Positions 1,301-28,853 of a stretch of DNA of 28,853 nt are shown in pieces. Numbering within the stretch: the first letter of the stretch is position 1; each line of letters starts with the position of its first letter. Origin of the DNA: Chrysophaeum taylorii (Eukaryota > Sar > Pelagophyceae > Pelagomonadales > Pelagomonadaceae); NCBI GenBank assembly GCA_029834535.1, contig JAQMWT010000568.1, positions 1 to 28,853 on the forward strand, in the 5' to 3' direction. Under the pieces are notes generated by a model. It searched no databases. It worked only from the letters and a program-made list of their open reading frames with translations, and was not told where the DNA came from. The position numbers and the translations under genes are program-made.

Positions 1301-1301
1301 T

Positions 1302-4961: not shown

Positions 4962-5080
4962 ACTCCTGGGGAGGTCCGACCTCGCTCTGCTCTTGTTCTT
5001 TCTTTTTCGCGCCCTTCCGCTGCGCTTCGCTCCTTTCACGTGCCTCCTGCAGCCCTCTCTTCGCACCTGATCGCTTCGCT

Positions 5081-5091
5081 GGATGGGGAGG
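5081..5091 (+). promoter_or_regulatory. Polypurine tract of copia copy A
   Basis: GGATGGGGAGG directly abuts the start of the 3' LTR (CACCAGCCTG). The identical 11-mer occupies the same place in copy B at 18407-18417. In LTR elements such a tract primes plus-strand DNA synthesis and defines the LTR 5' edge. Confidence 0.65.
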
Positions 5092-5203
5092 CACCAGCCT
5101 GTCCCAGTGACACGCCACTGACACACCACGCACGCGCCACGCACGCGCCACGTCGCCTGTCCTGACACTAGGTCACATGCCACGTTCACTTCACACACAC
5201 ACA
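5092..5203 (+). repeat. 3' LTR of copia copy A (3' end truncated)
   Basis: Matches the other LTR copies up to the CACACACA run, then lacks the terminal ATGACACTCATGCGG seen at 82-96 and passes straight into ACAAGTGCAGG, the start of the helicase-fossil array. The CA-rich run is a likely slippage or recombination point. Confidence 0.75.
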
Positions 5204-5570
5204 AGTGCAGGCCAGTAAGTTCACCTATCTCTAACCCCAGTAAGTTCACCAAATCCCGTTAAGTTCACCTAGTCCCAATCTCTAACCCCAGTAAATTCGG
5301 CGTAAGTCCAATCTCTAACCCCAGTAAGTTCGGCATAAACCCACTCGTGCTCACACCCACTCCTTCGAGCTCGTCGCTCTCACCCCCGCCAATCTAAGCT
5401 GCTTTGATCCGCACACGCCGCTAAGCTTTGAGTTTACTCTAAAAGCCCCAGTAAGTTCACACTTGGTCTCAGTAAGTTCACCTGGTCACTAAGTTCACCT
5501 AGTCCCAATCTCCAACCCCAGTAAGTTCACCTGGTTCCAGTAAGTTCACCTGGTCCCAGTAAGTTCACCT

Positions 5571-6180
5571 ACAGTGCGCGTGTAGACGCCGGGAGGGGGC
5601 TTATCGGTATTGCGCAGCACGTGTGGGGTAGGGTGGAGTCGTCGACCAGAAGAGCATATTCGGGGTTGCCGATCGACAGAGAGCCACGTAGAGCTGGACG
5701 TGGCAGAAGACGGGCGTTGGCAAGAGGACGCCGACCTCGCGGGGCGTCTGGCCCTGGCTCTTGGTGATCGTTTGGCGTCGGCGGGCCTTAAGGGATACAG
5801 GTTGGAGGAGCCTCGGTGACACGACACGATCGATCATGTATCTGGTACCGTTGCAGTGGCCGTGCGACGGGTCGAGGTTGCGAAGACATTAAGCTCGCGA
5901 TCAAAGTCAGCATGCCGTTGGTTGTCAGGGAGTTGAAAACTCGACTGTTAAGAGCGAGGCGTCGTCTTCCGACCCAACCTAGTCGGCCGAAAAGAACTCC
6001 GACGCCTCGTCTCCGGGAAAAAAAGGCCGCGGTCATGCGCGCGTTGTCAGCATCGACAACATCGTTTCGACGGGGCGTGAGAATGGCGCGCTGAAAGAGC
6101 CGCCGCGGGTCGTGGAAATAGTCTGCGAGGTCGCCGTAGACGGCTTGGAGGATCACTGTCTGGCTCTCGCGCCTACCTGA
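5571..6180 (-). pseudogene. PIF1/Helitron helicase C-terminal fossil, unit 1
   Basis: Read on the minus strand in three frames. First comes ILQAVYGDLADYFHDP with RAILTPRRNDVVDADN, the region between helicase motifs IV and V. NSLTTNGM follows, then [17 protein letters not shown] (motif V) and [10 protein letters not shown] (motif VI, normally YVALSRV). The complete helicase at 18530-20335 shows the same blocks in the same order. Motifs I-III are absent, so this is a 3' fragment of the gene. A frame change sits exactly between YPLRPADAK and ITKSQ (near 5770-5790), and the same break is in every unit. It cannot make an active helicase. Confidence 0.82.
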
Positions 6181-6606
6181 TCCTTACTCTCGCGCCTACC
6201 TGATCCTTACCCTAAATCGAGGGACAAACAAACAGACAAACAAACAAACAAACATCTGTCGATTAGTAGTTACAAGTGCAGGCCAGTAAGTTCACCTAGT
6301 CCCAATCTCTAACCCCAGTAAGTTCACCTGGTCCCAGTAAGTTTCATATAAGTTCACCTGGTCAGTATTATTATTGACAGTAAGTTCACCTAGCTCACAC
6401 CAACTCCTTTGAGCTCGTCGCTCTCGCCTCCGCCAATCTAAGCTGCTTTGATCCGCACGCGCCGCCAACCTTTGAGTTTACTCTAAAAACCCTTTACTCT
6501 AAAAACCCCAGTATGTTCACCTGGTCCCAGTTTCACCTGGTCACTCAGCTCACCTAGTCCCAATCTCCAACCCCAGTAAGTTCACCTGGTCCCAGTAAGT
6601 TCACCT

Positions 6607-7216
6607 ACAGTGCGCGTGTAGACGCCGGGAGGGGCTTATCGGTATTGCGCAGCACGTGTGGGTAGGGTGGAGTCGTCGACCCAGAAGAGTATATCCTCGG
6701 GGTTGCCGATCGACAGAGAGCCACGTAGAGCTGGACGTGGCAGAAGACGGGCTTGGGAAGAGGACGCCGACCTCGCGGGGCGTCTGGCCCTGGCTCTTGT
6801 TGATCGTTTGGCGTCGGCGGGCCTTAAGGGATACAGGTTGGAGGAGCCTCGGTGACAACGACACGATCGATCATGTATCTGGTACCGTTGCAGTGGCCGT
6901 GCGACGGGTCGAGGTTGCGAAGACATTAAGCTCGCGATCAAAGTCAGCATGCCGTTGGTTGTCAGGGAGTTGAAAACTCTACTGTAAAGAGCGAGGCGTC
7001 GTCTTCCGACCCAGCCTAGTCAGCCGAAAAGAACTCCGACGCCTCGTCTCCGGGAAAAAAGGCCGCGGTCATGCGCGCGTTGTCAGCATCGACAACATCG
7101 TTTCGACGGGGCGTGAGAATGGCGCGCTGAAAGAGCCGCCGCGGGTCGTGGAAATAGTCTGCGAGGTCGCCGTAGACGGCTTGGAGGATCACTGTCTGGC
7201 TCTCGCGCCTACCTGA
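6607..7216 (-). pseudogene. PIF1/Helitron helicase C-terminal fossil, unit 2
   Basis: Same blocks as unit 1, with INKSQGQT in motif V. A three-base insertion (TATATCCTCGG against TATTCGG) lies near the C-terminal end, and the poly-A run near 7050 is one base shorter than in unit 1. The motif V frame break is shared. Confidence 0.8.
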
Positions 7217-7395
7217 TCCTTACTCTCGCGCCTACCTGATCCTTACCCTAAATCGAGGGACAAACAAACAGACAAACAGACAGACAAACATCTGTCGATT
7301 AGTAGTTAGGACAAGTGCAGGCCAGTAAGTTCACCTACTCCCAATCTCTAACCCCAGTAAGTTCACCTGGTCACGTGGTCCCAGTAAGTTCACTT

Positions 7396-7985
7396 ATAGT
7401 GCGTGTGTAGACGCCGGGAGGGCTTATCGGTATTGCGCAGCACGTGTGGGGTAGGTGGAGTCGTCGGGGATGCCGATCGACAGAGAGCCACGTAGAGCTG
7501 GACGTGGCAGAAGACGGGCTTGGGCAAGAGGACGCCGACCTCGCGGGGCGTCTGGCCCTGGCTCTTGGTGATCGTTTGGCGTAGGCGGGCCTTAAGGGAT
7601 ACAGGTTGGAGGAGCCTCGGTGACAACGACACGATCGATCATGTATCTGGTACCGTTGCAGTGGCCGTGCGACGGGTCGAGGTTGCGAAGACTTTAAGCT
7701 CGCGATCAAAGTCAGCATGCCGTTGGTTGTCAGGGAGTTGAAAACTCTACTGTAAAGAGCGAGGCGTCGTCTTCCGACCCAGCCTAGTCAGCCGAAAAGA
7801 ACTCCGACGCCTCGTCTCCGGGAAAAAAAGGCCGCGGTCATGCGCGCGTTGTCAGCATCGACAACATCGTTTCGACGGGGCGTGAGAATGGCGCGCTGAA
7901 AGAGCCGCCGCGGGTCGTGGAAATAGTCTGCGAGGTCGCCGTAGACGGCTTGGAGGATCACTGTCTGGCTCTCGCGCCTACCTGA
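7396..7985 (-). pseudogene. PIF1/Helitron helicase C-terminal fossil, unit 3
   Basis: Shortest unit. About 20 bp between the GTCGTCG and GATGCCGATCG segments near 7460 have been lost, removing codons after motif VI. Motif V reads ITKSQGQT. The upstream 130-bp non-coding segment is absent from this unit. Confidence 0.8.
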
Positions 7986-8399
7986 TCCTTACCCTAAATC
8001 GAGGGACAAACAAACAGACAGACAGACAGACAGACAAACATCTGTCGATTAGTAGTTAGGACAAGTGCAGGCCAGTAAGTTCACCTAGTCCCAATCTCTA
8101 ACCCCAGTAAGTTCACCTTGTCCCAGTAAGTCCACCTGGTCAGTAAGTTCACCTAGTCCAAATCTCTAACCCCAGTAAGTTTGGCGCAAGCCCACTCGTG
8201 CTCACACCACTCCATCGAGCTCGTCGCTCTCGCCTCCGCCAATCTAAGCTGCTTTGATCCGCACACGCCGCTAATCTTCGAGTTTACTCTAAAACCCCCA
8301 GTAAATTCAATTGGTCCCAGTAAGTTCGCCTGGTCACTAATTTCACCTAGTCCCAATCTCCAACCTCCGTAAGTTCACCTGGTTCCAGTAAGTTCACCT

Positions 8400-9128
8400 A
8401 CAGTGCGCGTGTAGACGCCGGGAGGGGGCTTATCGGTATTGCGGAGCACGTGTGGGGTAGGGTGGAGTCGTCGACTCAGAAGAGCATATCCTCGGGGTTG
8501 CCGATCGACAGAGAGCCACGTAGAGCTGGACGTGACAGAAGACGGGCTTGGAAAGAGGACGCCGACCTCGCGGGGCGTCTGGCCCTGGCTCTTGTTGATC
8601 GTTTGGCGTAGGCGGGCCTTAAGCGATACAGGTTGGAGGAGCCTCGGTGACAACGACACGATCGATCATGTATCTGGTACCGTTGCAGTGGCCGTGCGAC
8701 GGGTCGAGGTTGATCGTTTGGCGTAGGCGGGCCTTAAGCGATACAATTTGGAGTAGCCTCGGTGACAACGACACGATCGATCATATGTATCTGGTACCGT
8801 TGCAGTGGCCGTGCGACGGGTCGAGGTTGCGAAGACATTAAGCTCGCGATCAAAGTCAGCATGCCGTTGGTTGTCACGGAGTTGAAAACTCTACTGTAAA
8901 GAGCGAGGCGTCGTCTTCCGACCCAGCTAGTCAGCCGAAAAGAACTCCAACGCCTCGTCTCCGGGAAAAAAAGGCCGCGGTCATGCGCGCGTTGTCAGCA
9001 TCGACAACATCGTTTCGACGGGGCGTGAGAATGGCGCGCTGAAAGCGCCGCCGCGGGTCGTGGAAATAGTCTGCGAGGTCGCCGTAGACGGCTTGGAGGA
9101 TCACTGTCTGGCTCTCGCGCTTACCTGA
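8400..9128 (-). pseudogene. PIF1/Helitron helicase C-terminal fossil, unit 4 (internal duplication)
   Basis: Contains a direct tandem duplication of about 115 bp (8595-8709 and 8710-8826), so the segment from the motif V break back to the [15 protein letters not shown] region is present twice. The second copy has picked up substitutions (for example ATACAATTTGGAGTAG for ATACAGGTTGGAGGAG). Other blocks match the other units. Confidence 0.8.
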
Positions 9129-9343
9129 TCCTCACTCTCGCGCCTACCTGATCCTTACCCTAAATCGAGGGACAAACAAACAGACAAACAAACAAACAAA
9201 CAGACAAACATCTGTCGATTAGTAGTTAAGATAAGATAAGACCCAGTAAGTTCACCTGGTCCCAGTAAGTTCACCTGGTCACTCAGTTCACCTAGTCCCA
9301 ATCTCAAACCCCAGTAAGTTCACCTGGCCCAGTAAGCTCACCT

Positions 9344-9955
9344 ACAGTGCGTGTGTAGACGCCGGGAGGGGGCTTATAGGTATTGCGCAGCACGTGTGGG
9401 GTAGGGTGGAGTCGTCGACCCAGAGGAGCATATCCTCGGGGTTGCCGATCGACAGAGAGCCACGTAGAGCTGGACGTGACAGAAGACGGGCTTGGGCAAG
9501 AGGACGTCGACCTCGCGGGGCGTCTGGCCCTGGCTCTTGTTGATCGTTTGGCGTAGGCGGGCCTTGAGGGATACAGGTTGGAGGAGCCTCGGTGACAACG
9601 ACACGATCGATCATGTATCTGGTACCGTTGCAGTGGCCGTGCGACGGGTCGAGGTTGCGAAGACATTAAGCTCGCGATCAAAGTCAGCATGCCGTTGGTT
9701 GTCAGGGAGTTCAAAACTCGACTGTAAAGAGCGAGGCGTCGTCTTCCGACCCAGCCTAGTCAGCCGAAAAGAACTCCGACGCCTCGTCTCCGGGAAAAAA
9801 GGCCGCGGTCATGCGCGCGTTGTCAGCATCGACAACATCGTTTCGACGGGGCGTGAGAATGGCGCGCTGAAAGAGCCGCCGCGGCTCGTGGAAATAGTCT
9901 GCGAGGTCGCCGTAGACGGCTTGGAGGATCACTGTCTGGCTCTCGCCTACCTGAT
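9344..9955 (-). pseudogene. PIF1/Helitron helicase C-terminal fossil, unit 5
   Basis: Last unit before the TM9SF gene. It carries the same order of blocks and the shared frame break. The minisatellite before it is short and preceded by AAGATAAGATAAG, and the unit lacks the ACAAGTGCAGG start and the 130-bp segment. Confidence 0.8.
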
Positions 9956-10050
9956 CCTTACTCTCGCGCCTACCTGATCCTTACCCTAAATCGAGGGACA
10001 AACAAACAAACAAACAGACAGACAAACAAACATCTGTCGATTAGTAGTTA

Positions 10051-10190
10051 GGAAGACTCATGCGAACTCTCCGTTTTTGGGAACTTCAACACGGTTCAAT
10101 GTAGGGTAAGGGCGAATTCGCGTTCCCACGTCCCGTTCTCAATGCAGCTGAAGCCCTCTTTTCTAAAAAACCCACATGTAACAGCAAAAC
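10051..10190 (+). other. Short 5' flank of the TM9SF gene
   Basis: About 140 bp of unique DNA between the end of the repeat array and the TM9SF ATG; the promoter and 5' UTR must lie here or inside the array. I see no TATA box. An in-frame stop (TAA at 10179-10181) precedes the chosen ATG, so translation cannot extend upstream without splicing. Confidence 0.5.
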
Positions 10191-13238: not shown

Positions 13239-14222
13239 CAAGTGCAGGCCAGTAAGTTCACCTAGTCCGAATCTCTAACCCCAGTAAGTTCACCTGGTCA
13301 TCTGGTCCCAGTAAGTTCACCTGGTCAGTAAGTTCACCTAGTCCAAATCTCTAACCCCAGTTAGTTCGGCGTAAACCCACTCGTGCTCACACCCACTCCT
13401 TTGAGCTCGCCGCTCTCACCCCCGCCAATCCAAGCTGCTTTGATCCGCACGCGCCGCCAGCCCTTGAGTTTACTCTAAAAACCGCAGTAAGTTCACCTGG
13501 TCTCAGTAAGCTCACCTGGTCACTATATTCACATAGTCCCAACCTCTAACCCCAGTAAGTTCACCTTGTCCCAGTAAGTTCACCTACAGTGCGCGTGTAG
13601 ACGCCGGGAGGGGGCTTATCGGTATTGCGCAGCACGTGTGGGGTAGGTGGAGTCGTCGACCCAGAAGAGGATATCCTTGGGGTTGCCGATCGACAGAGAG
13701 CCACGTAGAGCTGGACGTGGCAGAAGACGGGCTTCGCCAAGAGGACGCCGACCTCGCGGGGCGTCTGGCCCTGGCTCTTGGTGATCGTTTGGCGTCGGCG
13801 GGCCTTAAGGGATACAGGTTGGAGGAGCCTCGGTGACAACGACACGATCGATCATGTATCTGGTACCGTTGCAGTGGCCGTGCGACGGGTCGAGGTTGCG
13901 AAGACTTTAAGCTCGCGATCAAAGTCAGCATGCCGTTGGTTGTCAGGGAGTTCAAAACTCGACTGTTAAGAGCGAGGCGTCGTCTTCCGACCCAACCTAG
14001 TCGGCCGAAAAGAACTCCGACGCCTCGTCTCCGGGAAAAAGGCCGCGGTCATGCGCGCGTTGTCAGCATCGACAACATCGTTTCGACGGGGCGTGAGAAT
14101 GGCGCGCTGAAAGAGCCGCCGCGGGTCGTGGAAACAGTCTGCGAGGTCGCCGTAGACGGCTTGGAGGATCAATGGCTGGCTGGCTCGCGGGCCTACCTGA
14201 TCCTTACCGTAAATCGAGGGAC
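13239..14222. repeat. Sixth helicase-fossil unit (detached)
   Basis: Same structure and orientation as the array at 5201-10050: ACAAGTGCAGG start, 19-bp minisatellite, the 130-bp segment, helicase fossil, GAGGGACAAAC tail. Its tail differs: after GAGGGACAAAC it runs into ACACACACCCGGGTGTC instead of the usual microsatellite and ATCTGTCGATTAG end. It is separated from the array by the TM9SF gene and about 1 kb of unique DNA. Confidence 0.87.
13586..14200 (-). pseudogene. PIF1/Helitron helicase C-terminal fossil, unit 6
   Basis: Blocks [48 protein letters not shown] and YVALCRS in the order of unit 1, with the same frame break before motif V. It has a local change at the N-terminal end (AATGGCTGGCTGGCTCGCGGGCC instead of the ACTGTCTGGCTCTCGCGCC segment of the array units). 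Confidence 0.8.
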
Positions 14223-14442
14223 AAACACACACACCCGGGTGTCACCCCCCTCTTAGCTAACTAACTAAACTAACTTCAGACCTTTCCCGAGCATGGGAGC
14301 CAGGCCGGACCGACAGGAGCCAGTCCGGAATCACGGGCCTGTAGACGAGGAGCGCCGAAAGGTCGGTCGGCGGAGAGTGACCATCAAGCTTGTCGCCATG
14401 CGACGAGGAGACCGCGATGTGACTGACAACCAACTCGTCGAT
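14223..14442. other. Spacer with a CACCCGGGTG palindrome, no gene
   Basis: Contains the palindrome CACCCGGGTG near 14229-14240, a CTAACTAACTAAACTAAC run near 14255-14275, and otherwise unique sequence leading into the 176-bp block. No convincing coding signal on either strand. Confidence 0.4.
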
Positions 14443-14618
14443 AACCTTCCGTCTTCGCCCCCCGGCCATACCCCGTCCCACTGCGAACGTTCCGGCTGCC
14501 AACTGGCCCGCCCGGGAGGCGACTAGGTGCCAACCTACGCCGGGAGGGCGGATGCCCTCGCAAGGCTCAGGATTCATGAGGCACCGTCCTCCATCGCAAC
14601 CGTAGTCGGCGATCAGGG
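14443..14618 (+). repeat. 176-bp dispersed block, copy 1
   Basis: From AACCTTCCGTCTTCG to GATCAGGG. Close copies are at 23481-23654, 25786-25960 and 28083-28257, and a diverged inverted copy is at 22384-22542. The flanks here are unrelated to those of the other copies, so the block is a discrete unit. GGTGCC and GGCACC about 40 bases apart could pair. It is C/G-rich and not convincingly coding. SINE-like, MITE-like or a structured RNA are all possible. Confidence 0.7.
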
Positions 14619-14619
14619 C

Positions 14620-14751
14620 TTAGCAGTCGACATTTAAAGACAAATATTATCTCCGCCCGTCAGGCACATCCCTCATACCCCACAAACCCACCCACATCCT
14701 TCATGCTCCCCACACACACCCCCCTCTTAGCAGTCGACATTTAAAGACAAA
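14620..14751. repeat. 25-bp direct repeat flanking a C-rich spacer
   Basis: TTAGCAGTCGACATTTAAAG followed by ACAAA occurs at 14620-14644 and again at 14727-14751. The about 80 bp between them are rich in CCCACAC-type runs. Confidence 0.75.
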
Positions 14752-14770
14752 CAAGCAAACAAACAAACAA

Positions 14771-14835
<65 letters not shown>
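14752..14835. repeat. (ACAA)n-(ACAG)n microsatellite
   Basis: A run of ACAA units followed by about fifteen ACAG units, then ACAAACATCTGTCGATTAGTAG, the same terminal motif that ends the helicase-fossil units. It is probably the detached tail of a unit. Confidence 0.9.
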
Positions 14836-14837
<2 letters not shown>

Positions 14838-14897
14838 TCTGTCGATTAGTAGTAAGGAAACCCTTCAACGGTCCAAAAAATCCTGTTGATGAATCAA

Positions 14898-15013: not shown

Positions 15014-15040
15014 TGTACCGGCTCCATCAGGCTCCCGCCG

Positions 15041-16915: not shown

Positions 16916-18289
16916 CGCTCGCCATGCGCTGACAACAATGCCGTGCTCGTCTTCGAGGCCGTCTGCAACCGCTACTGCTATGTCGCCTGCGTCGGGGACG
17001 CTCGGTGCGCCTACCTCCAATCTCACCCACTCCTGCCTCATGAGTGCCGCTACATGCGCCCGCCTCGCGACTACATGGCAGACCTTCCTCCGGACCAACG
17101 ATACGACCCGGCTCGGTCGCTGTGGCTCACGCTCAAGCCTGCCTACGGCCAGCCCCATGCGGGCCGCAAGTGGTATGAGACGTTCGTCGAGTACCTCGGC
17201 CTTCTTGGCTTCCTCGAATCGCCGTACCACCCATACTTCTTCTACCACCATGAAGATACTGGGCCGCCGACGGTACTCATCAGCGTTGTCGACAACATTC
17301 CGCTCGCGGGCCAACCGGACGCCGAGGCTGAAGTACGCGCTGCGCTCAACGACCGTTTTGTCATGACGTGGGACGACGTCGCTCACGACATCTGCGGCAT
17401 CACCCTCGACTACCGTGCCGATGGCTCTGTCTTCGCCCACCAGCGCCCGTACATCGACAAGGTCCTCGGCCACCTCGGCTACGGCTCGATCACGGTCGGG
17501 CCTGCCACACCCATGCACCTGGACTTCAACGTCGACCCCAACGTCCCCGACAAGACTGCCGACGGCGGCGACGTCCGTGCCGCGCTCGCCATCAACCCAC
17601 GCGAGGCCCTTGGTCTGCTCATGTTCACGCGGGCGACGTTGCCCACCTTCGCACGCACGGTTCACGTCCTGGCCACCGCCGTAAACGTGTGGTCCGAGCG
17701 CCACGCTCGGGCCCTCGACCGCGCCCTGCGCTGGCTCGCGGCTCACCGGGACCTTGGCATCCTGTTTTCTGCTGCCTACCGGGGCGCCTTCCACCTCGCT
17801 GATTACGCGGACGAGAGTCTTGACTGTGAGCTCGCTCGCGGTGCGCACGGCTCTGCCCTCTCGCGCCTCGGTGGTGCCGTTCTCCTCCCGGGGGCCTGCG
17901 TCTCCGGGGCCAGTCGGCGCGTCTCTGGGACGTGCCACAGCACGCCTGAGATTGCCATCTTAGCCCTGTCTCACACTGTCCGTCGCCTTCTTGGCGTGCG
18001 CCACCTCATCCAGACCCTCGAGGGGGTCCGGCCGCCTCGCACCACGGTATGGTGTGATAACCAACCGGCACTGAAGATCGTCCGTCGCCGTCTTCTGTCG
18101 CCCAACTTGCGCCATCTGCGTATCGCCCTCAATGCCCTCACTTGCGCAGTTGATACGTACGACTGTGCCTACAAGTACGTCAAGACCAAGCTCAATTACG
18201 CCAGCGTCTTCGTTTCCAACGAGGACGCTGGCCTCTTCGACCGCGATACTGCCTTCCTTGCCGGTCATGTCACCCCTGACCTCTCCTAG
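16916..18289 (+). pseudogene. pol: copia copy B RT C-terminal part and RNase H (long intact frame)
   Basis: Uninterrupted to the TAG at 18287-18289. RT blocks: VGDARCAYLQS (catalytic Asp), LKPAYGQPHAGRKWYETF, VVDN at 17284-17295 in place of YVDD, and AHDICGITLDY. RNase H: HLADYADESL (first Asp), STPEIAILAL (Glu) and WCDNQPAL (Asp), so the catalytic acids are present. The end matches copy A (HVTPDLS). Relative to copy A there is no 12-bp duplication, and a CACATCGG segment near 17067 is missing in frame. Confidence 0.87.
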
Positions 18290-18406
18290 ACTCCTGGGGA
18301 GGTCCTACCTCGCTCTGTTCTTGTCCTCTTTCTCGCGCCCTTCTGATGCGCTTCGCTCCTTTCACGTGCCTCCTGCAGCCCTCTCTTCGCACCTGATCGC
18401 TTCGCT

Positions 18407-18417
18407 GGATGGGGAGG
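18407..18417 (+). promoter_or_regulatory. Polypurine tract of copia copy B
   Basis: GGATGGGGAGG immediately before CACCAGCCTG, identical to 5081-5091 of copy A. Confidence 0.65.
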
Positions 18418-18560
18418 CACCAGCCTGTCCCAGTGACACGCCATTGACACACCACGCACGCGCCACGCACGCGCCACGCACGCGCCACGCGCCACGTCGC
18501 CTGTCCTGACACTAGGTCACATGCCACGTTCACTTCATACACACATGACACTCGTGCGGA
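18418..18560 (+). repeat. 3' LTR of copia copy B
   Basis: Longest LTR copy here, about 140 bp, with an expanded CACGCACGCGC array. It ends CACTCGTGCGG against AATCTCC of the flank. The flank is the C-terminal end of the minus-strand helicase, so the LTR supplies that gene's last codons and stop. Confidence 0.82.
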
Positions 18561-20335
18561 ATCTCCTTATAAACGATATTTTTCGTGTAGACAACGGGGT
18601 GGCGCCGGGCGTAGTCGCGGACGAAGGCGTTGCTTTCGGCGTAGAAGACGAAGTCATCACGCCTGCCGACGCGGCTAAGGGCCACGTATAGTTGGCCGTG
18701 GGAAAAGACGGGTTCAGGGAGGAGGAGGCCAGCCTTTTTCAGGGTTTGGCCTTGGGATTTGTTGATGGTCATGGCAAACGCGGGGCGGATGGGAAAGTGC
18801 CGCCGTCGTAGGGTGAAGGGGTTGTCGTTGCCGGTGGTGGTAAATGTGAAGCGGGGGACTAGGAGGGTGTGTTTTCGGGGGACACCGGCTTCGTCCTTGA
18901 TCCACGTGGCGAGTTCGAGGAGGTAGTCGGTGATGACGCGGGTGAGAACGTACCGCGTACCGTTGGAGTGGATACGGGTAGCGTTTCGAAGGAGCATGAC
19001 GGGCATGCCGATCTTGAGCTTGAGTTCGTGGGGAGGCATGCCGCTGGGCGTGAGGCCGTTTAAGAATTCGATGGGGTATAGGACGGATCGTCGTCGCGGG
19101 CGACTTCGTCGGCCGAGTGGAAGGTGTATATCGTGGAGCCGGGGAACGTCGCGGTCATTTCGGCGTTGTAATGGTCGACGTTCGAGTTCTTCGGGGTGAG
19201 AACGGCCCGTTCGAAGACCCAGGTGGGGTCGTCGAAGCGGGCGTCGCCGTAGACGCGAGTGGTAAGATCGGCGGCGCTGTCGGCGTGGGGGACGTGGGTG
19301 CCGAGGTTGATCCACTCGTCGCCGAGGCCGGGTTCGGTGGGTAACGTGCCGTCGCCGACGCGGAGGAGGAAGTCCGCGAACTCTTGCAGGTCAACCTGGT
19401 CCTGGCCGCCGGACATTTTGACGCGCATGTTGACGGTGAGCTCGCGCACTTGAACGCGGGCCCAGACGGGCGCGTTCTTGATGCAGGCGCCGACGATTTC
19501 GTAGCGCCGTCCTCGTTTTACGATCGGCAGCATCTGGCGGAAGTCGCCGAGGAGGACGACGACCTTGCCGCCGAAAGGCGCATCGGCCATGAGGATGTCG
19601 CGCAGCGTGCGGTCGAGGGTCATGATGGTGTCCTTGTTCGTCATGGGAGCCTCGTCCCAGAGAAAGAGCTTGGCTTGGCTGATCACGTCGCGGGTCTGGT
19701 CCTTCTTATTTCTCGTGATGTTGCAGACGCTCGTGTCAGAGACGTTGAGTGGGATCTTGAAACGGGAGTGCGTGGTGCGGCCGCCCTGGAGGAGCGTCGC
19801 GGCGATGCCGGAGCTGGCGGTCGCGAGCGCGACGTGGTGCGGTTCGCGCACGGCCGCGAGTTTGGCAGAGGAACGTCTTGCCGGTTCCTGCGGGCGCTTG
19901 GATGAAGAAGACGGCACCGGGCGTTGGACCGGGCGTCGGATTAACGGGGTAGACGTCGTGCATGATCGCGTTGTAAGCGTCGAGCTGCGGCTGGTTGTGG
20001 GTGCGCATGCTGTCGAGGTTGCGGCGCACGATGGCGGCGAACACGTCGCGCGTTTCCGGCGTGTCGCCGAAGTGGAGTTCCTCGGCGACCATGCGCGACG
20101 TCAGTTGTGCGGTCTGGGTGGGTTCGGGCAAACCCACCTGGCGCATCGACATGCCGGCCCCTTCGAGGTGGGCCTGGATGTGTTGGAGGGCTTCGTTTTC
20201 GACGTCCGCGTTGAACTCGAGCGCCGGGTTCCGGCGATGCGTGCGGTACCGGTGGAGGATGTCGGTGATAAGGGTCTTCTTCGTGGCTTCCCAGCTGTCA
20301 AAGGGGTTAGCGAGCTCGCAATGCGTGATGAGCAT
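18530..20335 (-). pseudogene. PIF1-family helicase of Helitron type, near-complete helicase domain, two frameshifts
   Basis: Minus-strand reading from ATG at 20335 (MLITHCELANPFDSW). The preceding KTLITDILHRYRT block resembles the linker just before the helicase in Helitron RepHel proteins. Motif I is APAGTGKT (19871-19900), motif Ia ATASSGIAATLLQGGRTTHS, motif II FLWDEAPMTN (19637-19666), motif III LLGDFRQMLP (19531-19555), then RAVLTPKN, NGLTPSGMPPHELKLKIG, motif V TINKSQGQT (18743-18772) and motif VI YVALSRV (18668-18690). One frameshift lies just after motif I (about 19866), another about 19078. The family is a 5'-3' SF1B DNA helicase; in Helitrons it is fused to a Rep/HUH nuclease, which is absent here. 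The C-terminus (KNIVYKEI) runs directly into the copy B LTR, giving a tail of a few foreign residues and a stop. Upstream, the gene ends where the TCCACAATAATT repeats start. Confidence 0.88.
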
Positions 20336-20942
20336 CCACAATAATTAATTGGGAAATGTCAGTCACAGCAGACGAACGGAACTCTACTTTCTGTTCGAAG
20401 CCCTATGTATGCTCGAAACGGGCCGACAAAATCTGCGTTTTGTGTACGTACGTCTCGAGTTCGGATCCTGGTGTTGTAGAAATCCACAATAATTAATTGG
20501 GAAATGTCAGTCAGTCAGTCACGGGACTCTAACGGGACTCTACTTTCTGTTCGAACGAGCATGTATGCTCGAAACGGCTCGACAAAATCTGCGTTTTGTA
20601 AATCCACAATAATTAATTGGGAAATGTCAGTCACGCCACACGAACGGAACTCTACTTTCTGTTCGAAGCCCTATGTAGCTCGAAACGGGCCGACAAAATC
20701 TGCGTTTTTGAACGGAACTCTACTTTCTGTTCGAACGAGCATGCTCGAAACGGGCCGACAAAATCTGCGTCCTCCCCTCGACCCAAACCCCGCCCGGAAC
20801 TCTACTTTCTGTTCTTTCGAGAATGTATGCTCGAAACGGGCCGACAAAATCTGCGTTTTGCAAAGCCCATTTATTTTGGCCTCCCCTCGACCCAAACCCC
20901 GCCCTTGAAGATATAACGATCCTAGAAGAGCCGGCGATCGGC
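20335..20942 (+). repeat. Cluster of short repeat heads (5 cores)
   Basis: TCCACAATAATTAATTGGG begins at 20335, 20483 and 20603, each time preceded by A. A core of about 60 bp (ACTCTACTTTCTGTTCGAA to AAAATCTGCGTTTTG) begins at about 20391, 20537, 20649, 20717 and 20799. Single cores recur at 23063, 25370 and 27663 as the heads of the 2.3-kb units. The core in the second repeat can form a perfect 7-bp hairpin, CGAGCAT-GT-ATGCTCG (20556-20571). The last two cores are separated by CCTCCCCTCGACCCAAACCC, which recurs near 20880. Not coding. Confidence 0.82.
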
Positions 20943-22383
20943 CGATCTTTTTGAAGGTTGAAGGTCGACGACGGCGATGGAGCCTTCGCCCGGCAAACGG
21001 GACGACGCGCTCGAGCCAGGGACGCGACTCGACGCCGGCATGGCATGCCGGGTGGCTCCCTCTTATCTTTCGATGTTCTTTCGGGGTTCTGGAGCGCGCA
21101 AAAATGCGACGCGATTTCGCCTTTTTTGCGCGCGAACTCTTCGGTACGCGCGCGATGCGTGCCGGCGTCTTCGTCGCCGCTGCGACACCGGCCACCGAAA
21201 TCGAGAAGGGCTTGCCGCGCTCGCGTCTGCGGTCAAAGCCCGCTTCCGCGGCTACGACTCGCTCTTCCGACGGGCCGTCCTCGAGAAACGCGTGAGACCG
21301 ACGAGACTCGAACGTCGACTCGGTGGATTGAACACCGTTTCACCTTCGTTACGATGCGTGCCGCCGGCTTCGTCGCCGCTGCGAGCGGCCACCGCCGTCG
21401 CGACCGCGGACTCGAACTCGCCCGCGGGTCCAGTCGACAAACCCGAAAAAAAACTCGGCGGCGCGCTCGACGGGCGGCGGCGCCGCCCGCCGGCCCGGCG
21501 CTCGATACGATGCGTGCCGGCGGCTTCGTCGCCGCTACCAGCGGCCACCGCCGTCCCGACCGTGGCCTCGGACTTCCGCCGCGGGCGACATCTGGCTCGC
21601 CGTAAAGTGCGCGGCCGATTTCGTCGAGGCGTCGTCGACCTCGACCGCGTCCGCGACCCGATTTTTACGCTTTGGTCGACGGGTTGGTCGCGCCACGACC
21701 TGGGACTGGCCCGGGCTCTGGCCATCGCAAACCTCGCGACTACTGCTGGAGCGCCTACCGATCGAAGACCACGACAAACGCGGCGACGACCGCGACGAAT
21801 CGTGCCGCGCGCGCGCGCGCCGACGACCCGGCCGCGCGCCCGCGCGCGCCCCCCGACGACCGCCCGTGGCCGCGCTCTGGCCATCGCCGACGGAGAAGAA
21901 AGAACGAAAGACCTCCCCTTTCGCGTCCTACGGCGAAGTCCGCTTCCGCGGCCAACGCCTCGCTTTCCCGCAGCGGCCGTCCTCGCCGCGAGAACCTCTG
22001 GACCGTCGACCGCGACGGCGCGTCCGCTATCTATGGGATTATGCGCCACGCCCTCCTTCTCCGCTCGACGCCCCCCGCCGCCACCCCGCGCCTACCACCA
22101 AAAAATTATCGGGAAAAAAAAAAAAAAAATTTAATCGTCTATAGGGGAAATACGGAGGACCAATAAAGAAAAAATGCGGCCATCCGCCATCACATATCCA
22201 TCCGCCAAAAAACGCAAAGGCCGAAAATAAAGAGGCATAACGCTAACCCCATTACGCTTCGCGAACGGAAAGGAAGGAAAACGGTCACACCCTAACCCAA
22301 GAACGAAAAATTACGCAGAAATCTTCAAGAACCGAAGACAGAATTTCCACGGCGTCGCGACGGCGTTTTTGGTCGGCTCCCAA

Positions 22384-22542
22384 CCCCTGCGATCGCTAAC
22401 CGTTGGTTGCGATGGAGGACGGCGCCTAACACGCTTGCTCCCTGCGGCGGCCCCGGCCGTCCCGGAGTGAGACGGTGCCTGCTCGCCTCCCGGCTGGCCG
22501 GTTAGCACCCGGAAAGTCCGCGCTGGGATGGGGTTTCGCTCG
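22384..22542 (-). repeat. 176-bp dispersed block, copy 5 (inverted, diverged)
   Basis: Aligns to the reverse complement of 14443-14618. Shared anchors are TGCGATGGAGGACGG, GCCT, CGCCTCCCGG, the GGCCGGTTAGCA / GGCCAGTTGGCA pair, CCGGAA and GGGATGGGGT. It sits in the first tail of U1, where other units have the CGAGACGCGGCGGCCGTCG segment. Confidence 0.6.
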
Positions 22543-22887
22543 TTGGGGGTTCGGGGGCTTCCCCCCCGAGAAAAAGCCCGAAAAAAACCCGACTTGCCCC
22601 GCCGCCACCCCGCGCCACCCAAAAATATTGTCTATAGGGAAATACTCCAATAAAAGCGGCCATCCGCCATCACATAGTCCATCCGCAAAAAACGCAAAGC
22701 CGAAAATAAACAGGCATAACGCTAACCCCCAGAACGCTTCGCGCAACGGAAAGGAAGGAAAACGGTACACACCCTAACCCAAGAACGAAAAATTACGCAG
22801 AAATCTTCAAGAACCGAAGACAGAATTTCCACGGCGTGCGACGGCGTTTTTGGTCGGCTCCCGAGACGCGGCGGCCGTCGAGGCGGT

Positions 22888-22972
22888 GGGGGGTCCGGGG
22901 GTGTCCCCCGGCGGGGGGTTTGGGGGCAGAGCCCCCCAATTCCCGGGGGGTTCGGGGGGCTTGCCCCCCGAG
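22888..22972. repeat. G/C-tract hairpin cluster, tail of U1
   Basis: Runs of five to seven G alternate with matching C runs: GGGGG-TGT-CCCCC, GGGGGCAGAGCCCCC and GGGGGG-CTTG-CCCCCC are successive perfect hairpins. Equivalent clusters lie at about 25225-25276 (shorter, lacking the middle hairpin) and 27489-27572. The plus strand also has enough G runs for G-quadruplexes. Confidence 0.85.
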
Positions 22973-22974
22973 AA

Positions 22975-23008
22975 AAAGCCCGGAAAAAACCCGACTTGGC
23001 TTTACTAG
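22975..23008 (+). other. Terminal stem-loop and CTAG end of U1
   Basis: AAAGCC (22975-22980) pairs with GGCTTT (22998-23003) and is followed by ACTAG (23004-23008). Equivalent sites: 25283-25315 (AAGGCC with GGCTTT, one G-T pair) and 27577-27608 (AAGGCC with GGCCTT). The pairing survives different bases in the three copies. The loop is 15-17 bases, A-rich then CCCGACTT. Confidence 0.55.
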
Positions 23009-23480
23009 TCCACAATAATTAATTGGGAAACGTGAGTGTGTGTGTCCCGACACATTAACGGAACTCTACTTTCTGTTCGAAGCCCTATGTATGCTCGAAA
23101 CGGCCACACAAAATCTGCGTTTTGTAAAGCCGATTCATTTCAAAACGCTTCACCCGCGGCCTACTTTCTGTTCTTTGCTAAATGTATGAGCCAAAAGCAT
23201 TAATGTTTATAAAATGTTTTGTTCTTGCCATCTGCGGCGACCCTTGGAGTATCGGAGAGACCGTAGAAGTTTGAGCGAGAATCTGGGGTAGTTGCTGTAC
23301 GTACGTCTCGAGTTCGGATCCTGTTAGTATTTCGAAGGAGAAAACCCTTAGTCGTGAGTATTTCGAAGAAGGAAACCCGTAGTATTCGTTGAAAAGAAAA
23401 CCCTGTCGGATGGTCGATTTCTATGCTGGCTGTATGCTGGCGTAGTCGTAGATCGCGAGTATTTCGAGGAAGAAAACCCT

Positions 23481-23654
23481 AACCTTCCGTCTTCGCCCCC
23501 CGGCCATGCACCGTCCCACAGCGAACGTTCCGGCTGCCAACCGGCACGCCCGGGAGGCGAATAGGTGCCAACCTACGCCGGGAGGGCGGATGGCCTCGCA
23601 AGGCTCAGGATTCGTGAGGCACCGTCCTCCATCGCCCGCAGTCAGCGATCAGGG
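23481..23654 (+). repeat. 176-bp dispersed block, copy 2
   Basis: Within unit U2. GGTGCC (23574-23579) can pair with GGCACC (23618-23623). An alternative pairing GCCTC (23593-23597) with GAGGC (23616-23620) would exclude it. Confidence 0.75.
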
Positions 23655-24210
23655 TAAGGTTGTAGTCGTAAAAAAATTTTTTTGAAGTAAGGTTGTCGCG
23701 TGCGACGGCGATGGAGCCTTCGCCCGGCAAACGGGACGACGCGCTCGAGCCAGGGACGCTACGCGAGCCTCGACGCCGGCATCGCATGCCGGCGTTTTAC
23801 GTTCGGGGTTCTTTCGGGGTTCTGGCGCGCGCAAAAATGCGACGCGATTTCGCCTTTATTCCGCGCGAACTCTTCGGTACGCGCGCGATGCTGCCCGGCG
23901 TCTTCGTCGCCGCTGCGACCGGCCACCGAAATCGACAACGGCTTGCCGCGCTCGCGTCTGCGGTCAAAGCCCGCTTCCACGGCTACGACTCGATCTTCCG
24001 ACGGGCCGTCCTCGAGAACGCGCGCGACCGAACGAGACTCGACCGTCGACTCGGTGGATCGACCACCGTTTAACCTCCGTTACGATGCGTGCCGGCGGCT
24101 TCGTCGCCGCGAGCGGCCACCGCCGTCGCGACCGCGGACTCGGACTCGCCCGCGGGTTGACGTCCAGTCGACCGACCGGAAAAAAAACTCCGCGGCTCGC
24201 TCGACGGGCG

Positions 24211-24270
24211 GCGCACCGCGCCGCCGGGCAGCGCACCGCGCCGCCGGGCAGCGCACCGCGCCGCCGGGCA
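24211..24270. repeat. 3 x 20-bp GC-rich minisatellite
   Basis: GCGCACCGCGCCGCCGGGCA three times in tandem in U2. U3 has a single related copy near 26310. Confidence 0.9.
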
Positions 24271-24462
24271 GCGCTTCGATACGATGCGTTTCGGCGTCTT
24301 CGTCGCCGCCGTCGCGACCGCGGGTTGACGTCCAGTCGACCAACCCGAAATAAAAACTCGACGGCGCGTCGAGCTCGACGCGTGCGCCAGCGCTTCGATA
24401 CGATGCGTGCCGGCGTCTTCGTCGCCGCTGCGAGCGGCCACCGCCGTCGCGGACTCGAACTC

Positions 24463-24536
24463 GGACTCGCCCGCGGACTCGGACTCGCCCGCGGACTCGG
24501 ACTCGCCCGCGGACTCGGACTCGCCCGCGGACTGTC
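24463..24536. repeat. 18-bp minisatellite, four copies
   Basis: ACTCGGACTCGCCCGCGG repeated in U2; three copies occur in U3 at about 26547-26601. The period is a multiple of three, so both strands stay open and give spurious repetitive peptides (AGESES on minus). Confidence 0.9.
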
Positions 24537-25315
24537 CAGTCGACCAACCCGAATGCAAACTCCGCGGCGCGGCGCGCCGGCGCTCGACGCGTCTGCCAGC
24601 GCTTCGATACGATGCGTGCCGGCGTTCGTCGCCGCTTCGATACGATGCGTGCCGGCGTCTTCATCGCCGCTGCGAGCGGCCACCGCCTTCGCGACCGCGG
24701 CCTCCGGTCGTCGGCGCGCGGGCGCGCACGACCGCCCGTGGCCATCGGCCATCGCCCACGGAGACGAAGACCTCCCCGCTCGCGTCTACGGCGAAGCCCG
24801 CTTCCGCGGCCACGCCTCGCTCTTCCCGCTGCGGCCGTCCTCGCCGCGAGAACCTCTGGACCGTCGACCGCGACGGCGCGTCCGCTATCTATGGATTATG
24901 CGCGACGCCCTCCTTCTCACTACGCCCGCCGCCACCCCGGCGCCTATTGTCTATAATGAAATACTCCATTAAACAAAGCGGCCATCCGCCATCTCATAGT
25001 CCATCTCATAGTCCATCCGCAAAAAACGCAAAGCCGAAAATAAACAGGCATAACGCTAACCCCCAGAACGCTTCGCGCAACGGAAAGGAAGGAAAACGGT
25101 ACACACCCTAACCCAAGAACGAAAAACTTACCAAGAAATCTTCAAGAACCGAAAAGACAGAATTTCCAGGGCGTGCGACGGCGTTTTTGGTCGGCTCCCG
25201 AGACGCGGCGGCCGTCGAGGCGGTGGGGGGTCCGGGGGTGTCCCCCGGCGGGGGGTTTTTGGGGGGCTTGCCCCCCGAGAAAAAGGCCGAAAAAAACCCG
25301 ACTTGGCTTTACTAG

Positions 25316-27608
25316 TCCACAATAATTAATTGGGAAATGTCAGTCAGTCAGTGACAGAACTCTAACGGAACTCTACTTTCTGTTCGAATCCCTATGTATG
25401 CTCGAAACGGCCCGACAAAATCTGCGTTTTGTAAAGCCGATTTATTTCAAAACGCTTCACCCGCGACCTACTTTCTGTTCTTTGCTAAATGTATGCGCCA
25501 AAAGCATTAATGTTTATAAAATGTTTTGTTCTTGCCATCTGCGGCGAGCCTTGTAGTATCGGAGAGACCGTAGAAGTTTGAGCGAGAATCTGGGGGTTGC
25601 TGTACGTACGTCTCGAGTTCGGATCCTGTTAGTATTTCGAAGGAGAAAACCCTTAGTCGTGAGTATTTCGAAGAAGGAAACCCGTAGTATTCGTTGAAAA
25701 GAAAACCCTGTCGGATGGTCGATTTCTATGCTGGCTGTATGCTGGCGTAGTCGTAGATCGCGAGTATTTCGAGGAAGAAAACCCTAACCTTCCGTCTTCG
25801 CCCCCCGGCCATGCACCGTCCCACAGCGAACGTTCCGGCTGCCAACCGGCACGCCCGGGAGGCGAATAGGTGCCAACCTACGCCGGGAGGGCGGATGGCC
25901 CTCGCAAGGCTCAGGATTCGTGAGGCACCGTCCTCCATCGCCCGCAGTCAGCGATCAGGGTAAGGTTGTAGTCGTAAAAAATTTTTCGCGTCTTCGTCGC
26001 CGCTGCGACCGGCCACCGAAATCGACAACGGCTTGCCGCGCTCGCGTCTGCGGTCAAAGCCCGCTTCCACGGCTACGACTCGATCTTCCGACGGGCCGTC
26101 CTCGAGAACGCGCGCGACCGAACGAGACTCGACCGTCGACTCGGTGGATCGACCACCGTTTAACCTTCGATACGATGCGTGCCGCCGGCTTCGTCGCCGC
26201 TGCGAGCGGCCATCGACGTCGCGACCGCGGTATCGGACTCGCCCGCGGGTTGACGTCCAGTCGACAAACCCGAAAAAAAACTCGGCGGCTCGCTCGACGG
26301 GCGGCGCGCCGCGCCGCCGGGCCCGGCGCTTCGATACGATGCGTGCCGGCGTCTTCGTCGCCGCTGCGAGCGGCCACCGCCGTCGCGACCGCGGCCTCGG
26401 ACTCTCCCGCGGGTTGACGTCCAGTCGACCAACCCGAAATAAAAACTCCGCGGCGCGTCGAGCTCGACGCGTGCGCCAGCGCTTCGATACGATGCGTGCC
26501 GGCGTCTTCGTCGCCGCTGCGAGCGGCCACCGCCGTCGCGGACTCGGACTCGGACTCGCCCGCGGACTCGGACTCGCCCGCGGACTCGGACTCGCCCGCG
26601 GTGTCCAGTCGACCAACCCGAATAAAAACTCCGCGGCGCGGCGCGCCGGCGCTCGACGCGTCTGCCAGCGCTTCGATACGATGCGTGCCGGCGTCTTCGT
26701 CGCCGCTGCGAGCGGCCACCGCCGTCGCGACCGCGGCCTCGGACTCTCCCCCGCCGGCGACAACGGCTCGCCGTAAAGTCGCGGCCTTCGTCGACGCGTC
26801 GTCGACCTCGACGCGTCTGCGACATCGATTTCGCTTTTGTCGACGGTGGTCGCGCCACGTCCTGGGACTGGCCGCGCTCTGGCCATCGCAAGCCTCGCGT
26901 CCTACTGCTGGAACGCCTACGGATCCAAGACCAGGAACAACGCGGCGACGAGCGCGCCGCGCGCGCCCGCGCCGACGACCGGCCGCGCGCCCGCGCGCGT
27001 CCACCACGACCGCCCGTGGCCATCGGCCATCGCCCACGGAGACGAAGACCTCCCCGCTCGCGTCTACGGCGAAGCCCGCTTCCGCGGCCACGCCTCGCTC
27101 TTCCCGCTGCGGCCGTCCTCGCCGCGAGAACCTCTGGACCGTCGACCGCGACGGCGCGTCCGCTATCTATGGATTATGCGCGACGCCCTCCTTCTCACTA
27201 CGCCCGCCGCCACCCCGGCGCCTATTGTCTATAATGAAATACTCCATTAAACAAAGCGGCCATCCGCCATCTCATAGTCCATCCGCAAAAAACGCAAAGC
27301 CGAAAATAAACAGGCATAACGCTAACCCCAGAACGCTTCGCGCAACGGAAAGGAAGGAAAACGGTACACACCCTAACCCAAGAACGAAAAATTACGCGGA
27401 AATCTTCAAGAACCGAAAAGACAGAATTTCCACGGCGTGCGACGGCGTTTTTCGTCGGCTCCCGAGACGCGGCGGCCGTCGAGGCGGTGGGGGGTCCGGG
27501 GGTGTCCCCCGGCGGGGGGTTTGGGGGGCAGAGCCCCCAATTCCCGGGGGGTTCGGGGGGCTTGCCCCCCGAGAAAAAGGCCGAAAAAACCCGACTTGGC
27601 CTTACTAG
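25316..27608 (+). mobile_element. 2.3-kb tandem unit U3
   Basis: 2,293 bp, directly adjoining U2 with the same TC start and ACTAG end. It differs from U2 by loss of the GATGGAGCC to CGCGATGC segment after the A/T palindrome (near 25985), three rather than four 18-bp ACTCGGACTCGCCCGCGG repeats, retention of a GACAACGGCTCGCCGTAAAG segment missing from U2 (26757 onward), and a longer G/C-tract block. Confidence 0.7.
25786..25960 (+). repeat. 176-bp dispersed block, copy 3
   Basis: Within unit U3. Nearly identical to copy 2 (GGCCCTCGC against GGCCTCGC). Confidence 0.75.
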
Positions 27609-28853
27609 TCCACAATAATTAATTGGGAAATGTCAGTGTGTCAGTGAGAGAACATTAACGGAACTCTACTTTCTGTTCAAAGCCCTATGTATGCTCGAAA
27701 CGGAAACACAAAATCTGCGTTTTGTAAAGCCGATTCATTTCAAAACGCTTCACTCGAGGCCTACTTTCTGTTCTTTGCTAAATGTATGAGCCAAAAGCAT
27801 TAATGTTTATAAAATGTTTTGTTCTTGCCACCTGCGGCGACCCTTGTAGTATCGGAGAGACCGTAGAAGTTTGAGCGAGAATCTGGGGTCGTTGCTGTAC
27901 GTACGTCTCGAGTTCGGATCCTGTTAGTATTTCGAAGGAGAAAACCCTTAGTCGTGAGTATTTCGAAGAAGAAAACCGTAGTATTCGTTGAAAAGAAAAC
28001 CCTCTCGGATGGTCGATTTCTATGCTGTATGCTGTATGCTGGTGTAGTCGAAGATCGCGAGTATTTCGAGGAAGAAAACCCTAACCTTCCGTCTTCGCCC
28101 CCCGGCCATGCCCCGTCCCACAGCGAACGTTCCGGCTGCCAACCGGCACGCCCGGGAGGCGAATAGGTGCCAACCTACGCCGGGAGGGCGGATGGCCCTC
28201 GCAAGGCTCAGGATTCGTGAGGCACCGTCCTCCATCGCCCGCAGTCAGCGATCAGGGTAAGGTTGTAGTCGTAAAAAATTTTTTTTGAAGTAAGGTTGTC
28301 GCGTGCGACGGCGATGGAGCCTTCGCCCGGCAAACGGGACGACGCGCTCGAGCCAGGGACGCGAGCCTCGACGCCGGCATCGCATGCCGGCGTTTTTACG
28401 TTCGGGGTTCTTTCGGGGTTCTGGCGCGCGCAAAAATGCGACGCGATTTCGCCTTTTTTGCGCGCGAACTCTTCGGTACGCGCGCGATGCTGTCGATCTT
28501 CCGACGGGCCGTCCTCGAGAACGCGCGCGACCGAACGAGACTCGACCGTCGACTCGGTGCATCGAGCATCGTTCCACCTTCGATACGATGCGTGCCGCCG
28601 GCTTCGTCGCCGCTGCGAGCGGCCATCGACGTCGCGACCGCGGACTCGGACTCGCCCGCGGGTTGACGTCCAGTCGACAAACCCGAAAAAAAACTCGGCG
28701 GCTCGCTCGACGGGCGGCGCTCCGCGCCGCCGGGCCCGGCGCTTCGATACGATGCGTGCCGGCGTCTTCGTCGCCGCTGCCAGCGGCCACCGCCGTCGCG
28801 ACCGCGGCCTCGGACTCTCCCCCGCTACGGATCGAAGACCACGAAAAACGCGG
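27609..28853 (+). mobile_element. 2.3-kb tandem unit U4 (cut by window end)
   Basis: Begins TCCACAATAATTAATTGGG immediately after the ACTAG of U3, and follows the U2 order through the head core (27663), AT-richer block, 176-bp block (28083-28257) and GATGGAGCC segment into the GC-rich subrepeats, where the window stops. Near 28490 it lacks a stretch of about 95-100 bp that is present in U2. Confidence 0.7.
28083..28257 (+). repeat. 176-bp dispersed block, copy 4
   Basis: Within unit U4. Nearly identical to copies 2 and 3, with GGCCATGCCCCGTCC in place of GGCCATGCACCGTCC. Confidence 0.75.

Follow-up and report, generated by a model that had tools for sequence, protein, structure and literature searches.

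The stretch of Chrysophaeum taylorii DNA analyzed here (the window) is the whole of contig C568 (28,853 nt), one of the 697 contigs of a 70.8-Mb genome, and it carries a head-to-tail array of units of about 2.3 kb, named family A, whose ends resemble those of Helitrons, the rolling-circle transposons. The 12-mer TCCACAATAATT lies on the plus strand at exactly 20335, 20483, 20603, 23009, 25316 and 27609 and nowhere on the minus strand, and it is preceded by ACTAG at 23009, 25316 and 27609 and by a bare A at 20335, 20483 and 20603, as the original prediction, made from the letters of the window, had read it. Under a first-order Markov model, with both strands of the window counted, 0.0007 copies of TCCACAATAATT are expected by chance, and 3e-7 of ACTAGTCCACAATAATT. 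The features of the array are as follows:

20335..20482, plus strand: family A 5'-terminal stub of 148 nt, followed directly by another 5' end
20483..20602, plus strand: family A 5'-terminal stub of 120 nt, directly before the first long unit
20603..23008, plus strand: U1, family A unit, read as a non-autonomous Helitron, 2406 bp
23009..25315, plus strand: U2, family A unit, read as a non-autonomous Helitron, 2307 bp
25316..27608, plus strand: U3, family A unit, read as a non-autonomous Helitron, 2293 bp
27553..27608, plus strand: 3' terminus of U3 as folded, with a GC-rich 8-bp hairpin, a 7-bp hairpin (13-nt loop) and ACTAG
27609..28853, plus strand: U4, family A unit, incomplete at the contig end

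U4 is incomplete because the window spans the entire contig. Self-BLAST of the units gave 91.6-95.1% identity in the longest blocks crossing the joints (1.1-1.3 kb) and 78-91% in inner blocks. Across the first 700 bp, U2-U4 are 96-97% identical to one another, and U1 is 74-76% identical to them.

Termini of family A

The 5' terminus of family A begins with TC, and its first 21 nt, TCCACAATAATTAATTGGGAA, have 189 exact copies in the genome (94 + 95 by strand), while the 3'-terminal 19-mer, with up to two mismatches allowed, has 180 matches (92 + 88); the reversed-pattern controls gave 0 in both cases. The 19-mer ends in CTAG, which fits the CTRR of Helitrons, although one match among those listed (C30) ends in CTAC. 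The exact family A head-to-tail joint is present at 119 places (59 + 60; reversed control 0). The prediction of Helitron-like TC...CTAG ends is therefore borne out by copies throughout the genome.

The Helitron norm is a short hairpin about 10-12 nt ahead of CTRR. The hairpin with a long loop that had been described next to CTAG was recovered in U3, where its stem has 7 bp, its loop 13 nt, and ACTAG follows at once; a second, GC-rich hairpin of 8 bp ends 36 nt from the end of the unit. Compared with shuffled sequences, the folding signal in three family A 3' ends was weak and uneven (z of -2.13 for U3, and of -0.30 and -1.35). Among 44 distinct ends, the hairpin arms AAGGCC or AAGCCC and GGCCTT or GGCTTT occur in several combinations, and we claim no compensatory (covariation) support because the arm variants pair in more than one way.

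Rep-helicase copies and insertion sites

A search with PF14214 (the Helitron Rep domain, Helitron_like_N) returned 40 rows across the genome, some of them pieces of one place, of which 39 lay above the family cut-off (best E 4.3e-59), and nothing in any of 14 control genomes. None of the 40 rows is on C568, and none of the 10 open reading frames scanned in the window holds a Rep domain, in agreement with the absence of Rep noted originally. Elsewhere in the genome the autonomous copy that had been sought exists in four examples of 6.0-6.5 kb, which carry the Rep domain between family A ends:

C370, 259982-266028: long Rep-bearing family A copy, 6047 bp, solo
C233, 43512-37039: long Rep-bearing family A copy, 6474 bp, solo, with a short 5' stub
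C98, 12929-19193: long Rep-bearing family A copy, 6265 bp, within an array
C371, 106-6477: long Rep-bearing family A copy, 6372 bp, within an array

The C233 copy has a frame of 1862 amino acids (aa) that matches PF14214 (2.5e-53) and PF05970 (9.8e-65), with the Y2 motif outside the frame, and that aligns with Helraiser (7lcc_A) at E 4.7e-178, the best stretch being the helicase half (residues 1138-1862). In the C371 copy, the HUH, Y2, Walker A, DEAP and SQGQT motifs all fall within a single 1031-aa frame. Solo copies sharing the family A ends, also sought, were read whole in C162, C370 and C233 and by their two ends in C310. As the ends of the 2.3-kb units are common to Rep-helicase copies and solo copies exist, the proposal of a tandemly arranged, non-autonomous rolling-circle family was upheld.

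The gene adjoining the array in the window is the following:

18530..20334, minus strand: Helitron PIF1-type helicase fragment (PF05970, E 7.5e-56; PF21530)

Its open reading frame (18530-20341, minus strand) matches both families, and over 263 aa the fragment shares 88% identity with the C233 helicase. Its assignment to the Helitron class of PIF1 helicases thus stood, but it is not a working partner of the units, being truncated and interrupted by the array: its upstream side is cut by family A at A/T (a slash marks the joint), and on its other side lies a copia-like retroelement.

The bases preceding the 189 family A starts are 135 G, 35 A, 16 T and 3 C. Most of these G belong to the CTAG of a neighboring unit (the 119 joints), with three exceptions among those read (C24, C182 and C296). 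On the 3' side, 11 tails match a 16-letter 3' end pattern, which omits tails with C as third base, and the base that follows is T in nine of them. Uninterrupted relatives of the window helicase site read GAGTGATGAGCA/TGGCG at 11 distinct places (19 rows, with overlapping loci), that is, A/T, and the C634 array is likewise inserted at A/T, in the sequence GGCTCA/TACATT of an inverted family A copy. On the other hand, C98 and C602 have a common flank whose uninterrupted relative in C189 reads CCT/TTC (T/T), and C340, which adjoins a family B end (family B is described below), shows T/T in two of three relatives, the third alignment ending two bases short. Inspection by eye of the seven copies with two flanks (C24, C162, C182, C233, C296, C310 and C370) showed no target duplication, and an empty site flanked on both sides was not encountered. 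Of the predicted insertion between A and T, the strict A does not stand, two sites being A/T and two T/T. Family A inserts before T, which is nearly constant, and usually after A, which is a preference.

One flank of 150 bp (94%) is shared by C366 (358800-359318) and C540 (13945-14094), where the family A copies that it adjoins are not the same and have unlike 5' stubs; this would fit a site filled more than once, or a flank that is a repeat in its own right.

Growth of the arrays and origin of the 5' stubs

We read the 2.3-kb units as non-autonomous Helitrons of the canonical type, mobilized in trans by the same-ended Rep-helicase copies of 6.0-6.5 kb and growing into arrays by two routes, a reading to which we assign a probability of about 0.9. 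Rep would nick at the 5' TC, the displaced strand would come free at the 3' end, and the copy would be joined to a target base that precedes T. Arrays could grow through rolling-circle products exceeding one unit, and also through insertions, one after another, at the end of a Helitron already in place, where the 3' terminus together with the T would remake the site.

Several points weigh against this reading. The base preceding family A is not strictly A, and the pre-insertion sites were paralogous uninterrupted relatives, four sites in all, compared on the 5' side only. Among the seven long family A loci examined for motifs (C98, C370, C340, C233, C403, C688 and C371), C371 alone has all of them in a single frame; six are broken, either by decay or by sequencing error, so that current activity of family A is no more than a possibility. 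The hairpin clearly beats shuffled sequences in only one of three ends, and its arm variants lend no compensatory support. Finally, since U2-U4 are so alike, the array in the window could equally well have arisen by duplication in place, whether through unequal exchange or otherwise.

The make-up of the arrays bears on how they grew. In C98 and C371, short units (2.1-2.6 kb) stand alongside Rep-bearing units of 6.3-6.4 kb. Similarity was compared among 22 5'-terminal and 21 3'-terminal regions, with three stub starts omitted and 20 of the 210 3' pairs dropped for having fewer than 300 aligned bases; over the first 700 bp it is 0.861 within arrays (19 pairs) versus 0.858 between arrays (212 pairs), and over the last 500 bp 0.953 (14 pairs) versus 0.942 (176 pairs). 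Tight groups are formed by U2-U4 and by the C3 array (98-99% over the last 500 bp), and the closest relative of a unit may sit in another array (0.996 between C340 and C366). Of the 11 tails, five run into family B (C316, C370, C371, C688 and C689), four into A-like starts (C118, C204, C603 and C649) and two into other sequence (C310 and C407). Five more tails enter family B as CTAG/TCCTAAC (C24, C162, C182, C233 and C296), so that family B begins at the CTAG of family A in 10 places (A/B joints). At C370 and C688 family B begins with TAAC, without its first three bases, and at C316 extra bases stand ahead of it.

Rolling-circle read-through could in principle be the sole source of the arrays, if concatemers of one unit, made from a circle or by passing over the 3' end, insert in a single event. 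The precise joints and the likeness of U2-U4 agree with this, and tandem Helitrons are in print, with head-to-tail joints in plants and bats (in passages of PMC5876387) and in bat and silkworm, where a bypassed termination signal is the suggested cause (in passages of PMC4067079). One-circle concatemers cannot, however, explain all arrays, because units of 2.1-2.6 kb lie beside Rep-bearing units of 6.3-6.4 kb, neighbors are barely more alike than strangers, and the 10 A/B joints link two families, which no single circle yields; as the sole source of the arrays, read-through seems to us improbable. Amplification as a satellite, with one insertion multiplied by unequal crossing-over and the element itself uninvolved in growth, would account for the 96-97% identity of U2-U4 and for the C3 array, and unequal crossing-over may operate inside arrays. 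Against it, copies with the same two ends are found on many contigs, solo copies among them, arrays mix unit types, and the closest relative can be in another array, as for C340 and C366, which makes this explanation very unlikely. The mixed sizes, the slight excess of similarity within arrays and the A/B joints therefore point to repeated insertion at resident termini besides any concatemers. An insertion just before the first T of a resident gives an identical joint and is usually indistinguishable from one behind its 3' end. A further reading, which we hold to be doubtful, is that Helitrons in this genome target the ends of Helitrons already in place, a new copy of the same or of another family settling exactly at such a terminus (CTAG/T, CACTTG/T), that each insertion remakes the site and that failed starts leave stubs of 7 to about 200 nt; if true, rolling-circle transposons would here follow a self-seeding target rule.

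Close to contig ends, a number of family A arrays face outward (C340, C366, C370, C3 and C118, among others), unlike those of C164 and C202. No canonical telomere tract was found in this genome, a pattern of three TTAGGG-like repeats giving five matches, four of them in one contig (reversed control 1). Position at a contig end is no proof of a subtelomere, because repeats also break assemblies.

Short repeats of the 5' terminus were found as well. The first 7-14 nt are repeated ahead of a full family A start at 14 places (the pattern spans stubs of 7-16 nt), and six stubs follow one another on C560. Of these short stubs, nine stop at nt 7, 10 or 14, where the 5' end has A/T steps, but the nine, one of which carries a base change, are perhaps not independent of each other. 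Stubs of greater length (78-214 nt) were found in the window (20335 and 20483), C403, C310, C602 and C26, and by eye four of them end at A/C, A/G, A/A or T/A of other copies, not at A/T. Each longer stub was compared with its following start. For C403 the two agree fully over 78 nt, with no other start closer, whereas other starts are closer in 49 of 61 cases for stub 20335, 3 of 61 for stub 20483, 60 of 61 for C602 (46 nt aligned) and 5 of 62 for C310 (35 nt aligned); for the two C26 stubs the comparison was unfair, the starts having been truncated to 150 nt. The result is indecisive, because of the seven stubs one is closest to its follower, four are not and two were unfairly compared. Exact in-place remnants of the form CTAG/TTGGG, CTAG/TTAATTGGG or CTAG/TAATTAATTGGG had 0 matches genome-wide, a search that diverged remnants would escape. 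With 0 exact remnant joints against 14 short stubs, nested insertion was not retained as the in-place source of stubs.

Two origins of the stubs were weighed, neither of which we regard as better than doubtful. A new copy landing in the A+T-rich start of a resident would leave a stub by self-insertion in place, which suits the nine short stubs ending at A/T steps, and for Fusarium a scheme has been proposed in which a self-inserted element transposes from its outer 5' end (in passages of PMC5148889). The downstream remnants that it requires are, however, absent as exact patterns, and four longer stubs end at steps other than A/T. The chimeric form survives, in which, after self-insertion, the stretch that transposes runs from the outer 5' end to the inner 3' end. 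Alternatively, stubs would be failed rolling-circle starts, the Rep-bound 5' end being rejoined to the new strand once between a few and some 200 nt had been made. The lack of remnants, the exact 5' starts with variable ends, the six consecutive stubs on C560 and the C403 stub speak for such failed starts, while stubs 20335, 20483, C602 and C310, not being closest to the following start, speak against them, and we know of no Helitron report of 5'-end rejoining.

Family B, neighboring genes and known systems

Copies of a second family, family B, lie on the minus strand of the window:

8062..10053, minus strand: family B array, first two 5' ends (10053 and 9231), starts TCYTAACTACTAATCG, with decayed helicase C-terminal remnants
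7312..8061, minus strand: family B unit, clean joint CACTTG/TCCTAAC at 8061/8062
6273..7311, minus strand: family B unit, clean joint CACTTG/TCCTAAC at 7311/7312
5202..6272, minus strand: family B unit, the last of the array, adjoining a copia-like element; joint CACTTG/TAAC at 6272/6273
13239..14858, minus strand: rearranged further family B copy, 5' end at 14858, 3' end CACTTG at 13239

The units of the array (5202-10053) start with TCYTAACTACTAATCG and end with CACTTG, the joint of the start at 9231 not being clean. Their decayed helicase C-terminus is 34-63% identical to that of family A, in pieces. A Rep-helicase copy of family B lies in C105 (48031-54811), with a PF14214 Rep domain and a helicase 51-58% identical to that of family A at the amino acid level (two pieces); CACTTG stands just before it and a family B start just after it, with no other family A or B end inside by the motifs used. 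As its 3' end is CTTG and not CTRR, family B is Helitron-like, by gene content and the 5' TC, and not canonical. A family A or B 3' end followed within 14 nt by a family B start was found at 720 places in the genome (reversed control 0), which are candidate joints only, because the 3' part of the pattern has six letters; an A-type ending precedes the family B start in one of the 100 candidates listed.

Several further observations concern this family. A second Rep subfamily (YSYSIEYQKRG, YIHKYVYKG), seen for example in C6, C105, C268, C331 and C394, includes the C105 copy. Repeated 5' ends of family B are present at locus L074 (C24 96100-96260, bases 46-161), where, immediately after a family A 3' end, stubs of 39 nt and 21 nt stand ahead of a longer family B start. 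A stretch of about 175 bp (93-94% identity), possibly a captured sequence, is common to family A units (23480-23654, 25785-25960 and 28082-28257; inverted and weaker at 22405-22534) and to an isolated site inside the rearranged family B copy (14442-14618).

Between the family B copies lies an open frame for an EMP70/TM9SF membrane protein, a host gene (10191-12173, plus strand; PF02990, E 1.1e-190). The family B array starts on its upstream side, about 140 bp from the ATG, and the further copy lies downstream of the gene. Among the 120 listed of 849 protein-search hits of this EMP70 gene, the top one is from Synchroma pusillum, and the named ones below it include Aureoumbra lagunensis and Aureococcus anophagefferens; two taxa that were checked belong to the Ochrophyta (Synchromophyceae and Pelagophyceae). 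The Synchroma protein is a repetitive prediction whose alignment falls into pieces of 45-63% identity, and the hits ranked after it are metagenome proteins with 70-73% identity. On the strength of this one gene the host was taken for an ochrophyte. Two copia-like retroelement copies (314-5201 and 15017-18545, plus strand) are 95% alike over long blocks, with RVT_2 matches below the family cut-off, and one of them adjoins the truncated helicase. An Rfam search gave no match at the gathering score.

Tandem Helitrons and multiple 5' termini are already in print, and this case has an unusually rich set of joints. The origin of tandem arrays is unsettled among skipped 3' ends, circles and insertion beside residents, and a compact genome with 119 A/A, about 720 candidate and 10 A/B joints, Rep copies and 14 stub sets provides natural data for separating these routes. 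It also adds an apparent ochrophyte alga to the hosts of tandem Helitron arrays. Elsewhere, Helitron-like genes are described in subtelomeric extensions of a nematode (in passages of PMC8022731).

Family A shares with canonical Helitrons, of which Helraiser from bats is the studied member, the 5' TC, the 3' CTAG, with an apparent hairpin ahead of it, and insertion before T, as well as one large Rep-helicase protein with same-ended non-autonomous partners. It differs from them in that the loop of its last hairpin has 13-16 nt and lies one base from CTAG, and in that the preceding base is often T or G. Helentron and Helitron2 elements carry an inverted repeat at either end and insert at T-rich sites (passages of PMC4067079 and PMC5148889, and in part general background). 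Fusarium FoHeli elements have multiple 5' termini, with repeated 5' pieces (31-85 nt in the examples) ahead of one full element (in passages of PMC5148889), a trait shared with family A; FoHelis, however, are described as similar to Helitron2 and have other ends, and the family A stubs go down to 7-14 nt, with up to six in a row. Plant arrays with many 5' ends and one 3' end were reported by Xiong et al. 2016, as cited in PMC12628747. As far as these passages go, the plant, bat and silkworm arrays have head-to-tail joints like those of family A, and the plant arrays also have repeated 5' ends; compared with the published arrays as those passages present them, the family A arrays hold in addition Rep-bearing copies and a second family at the family A 3' end.

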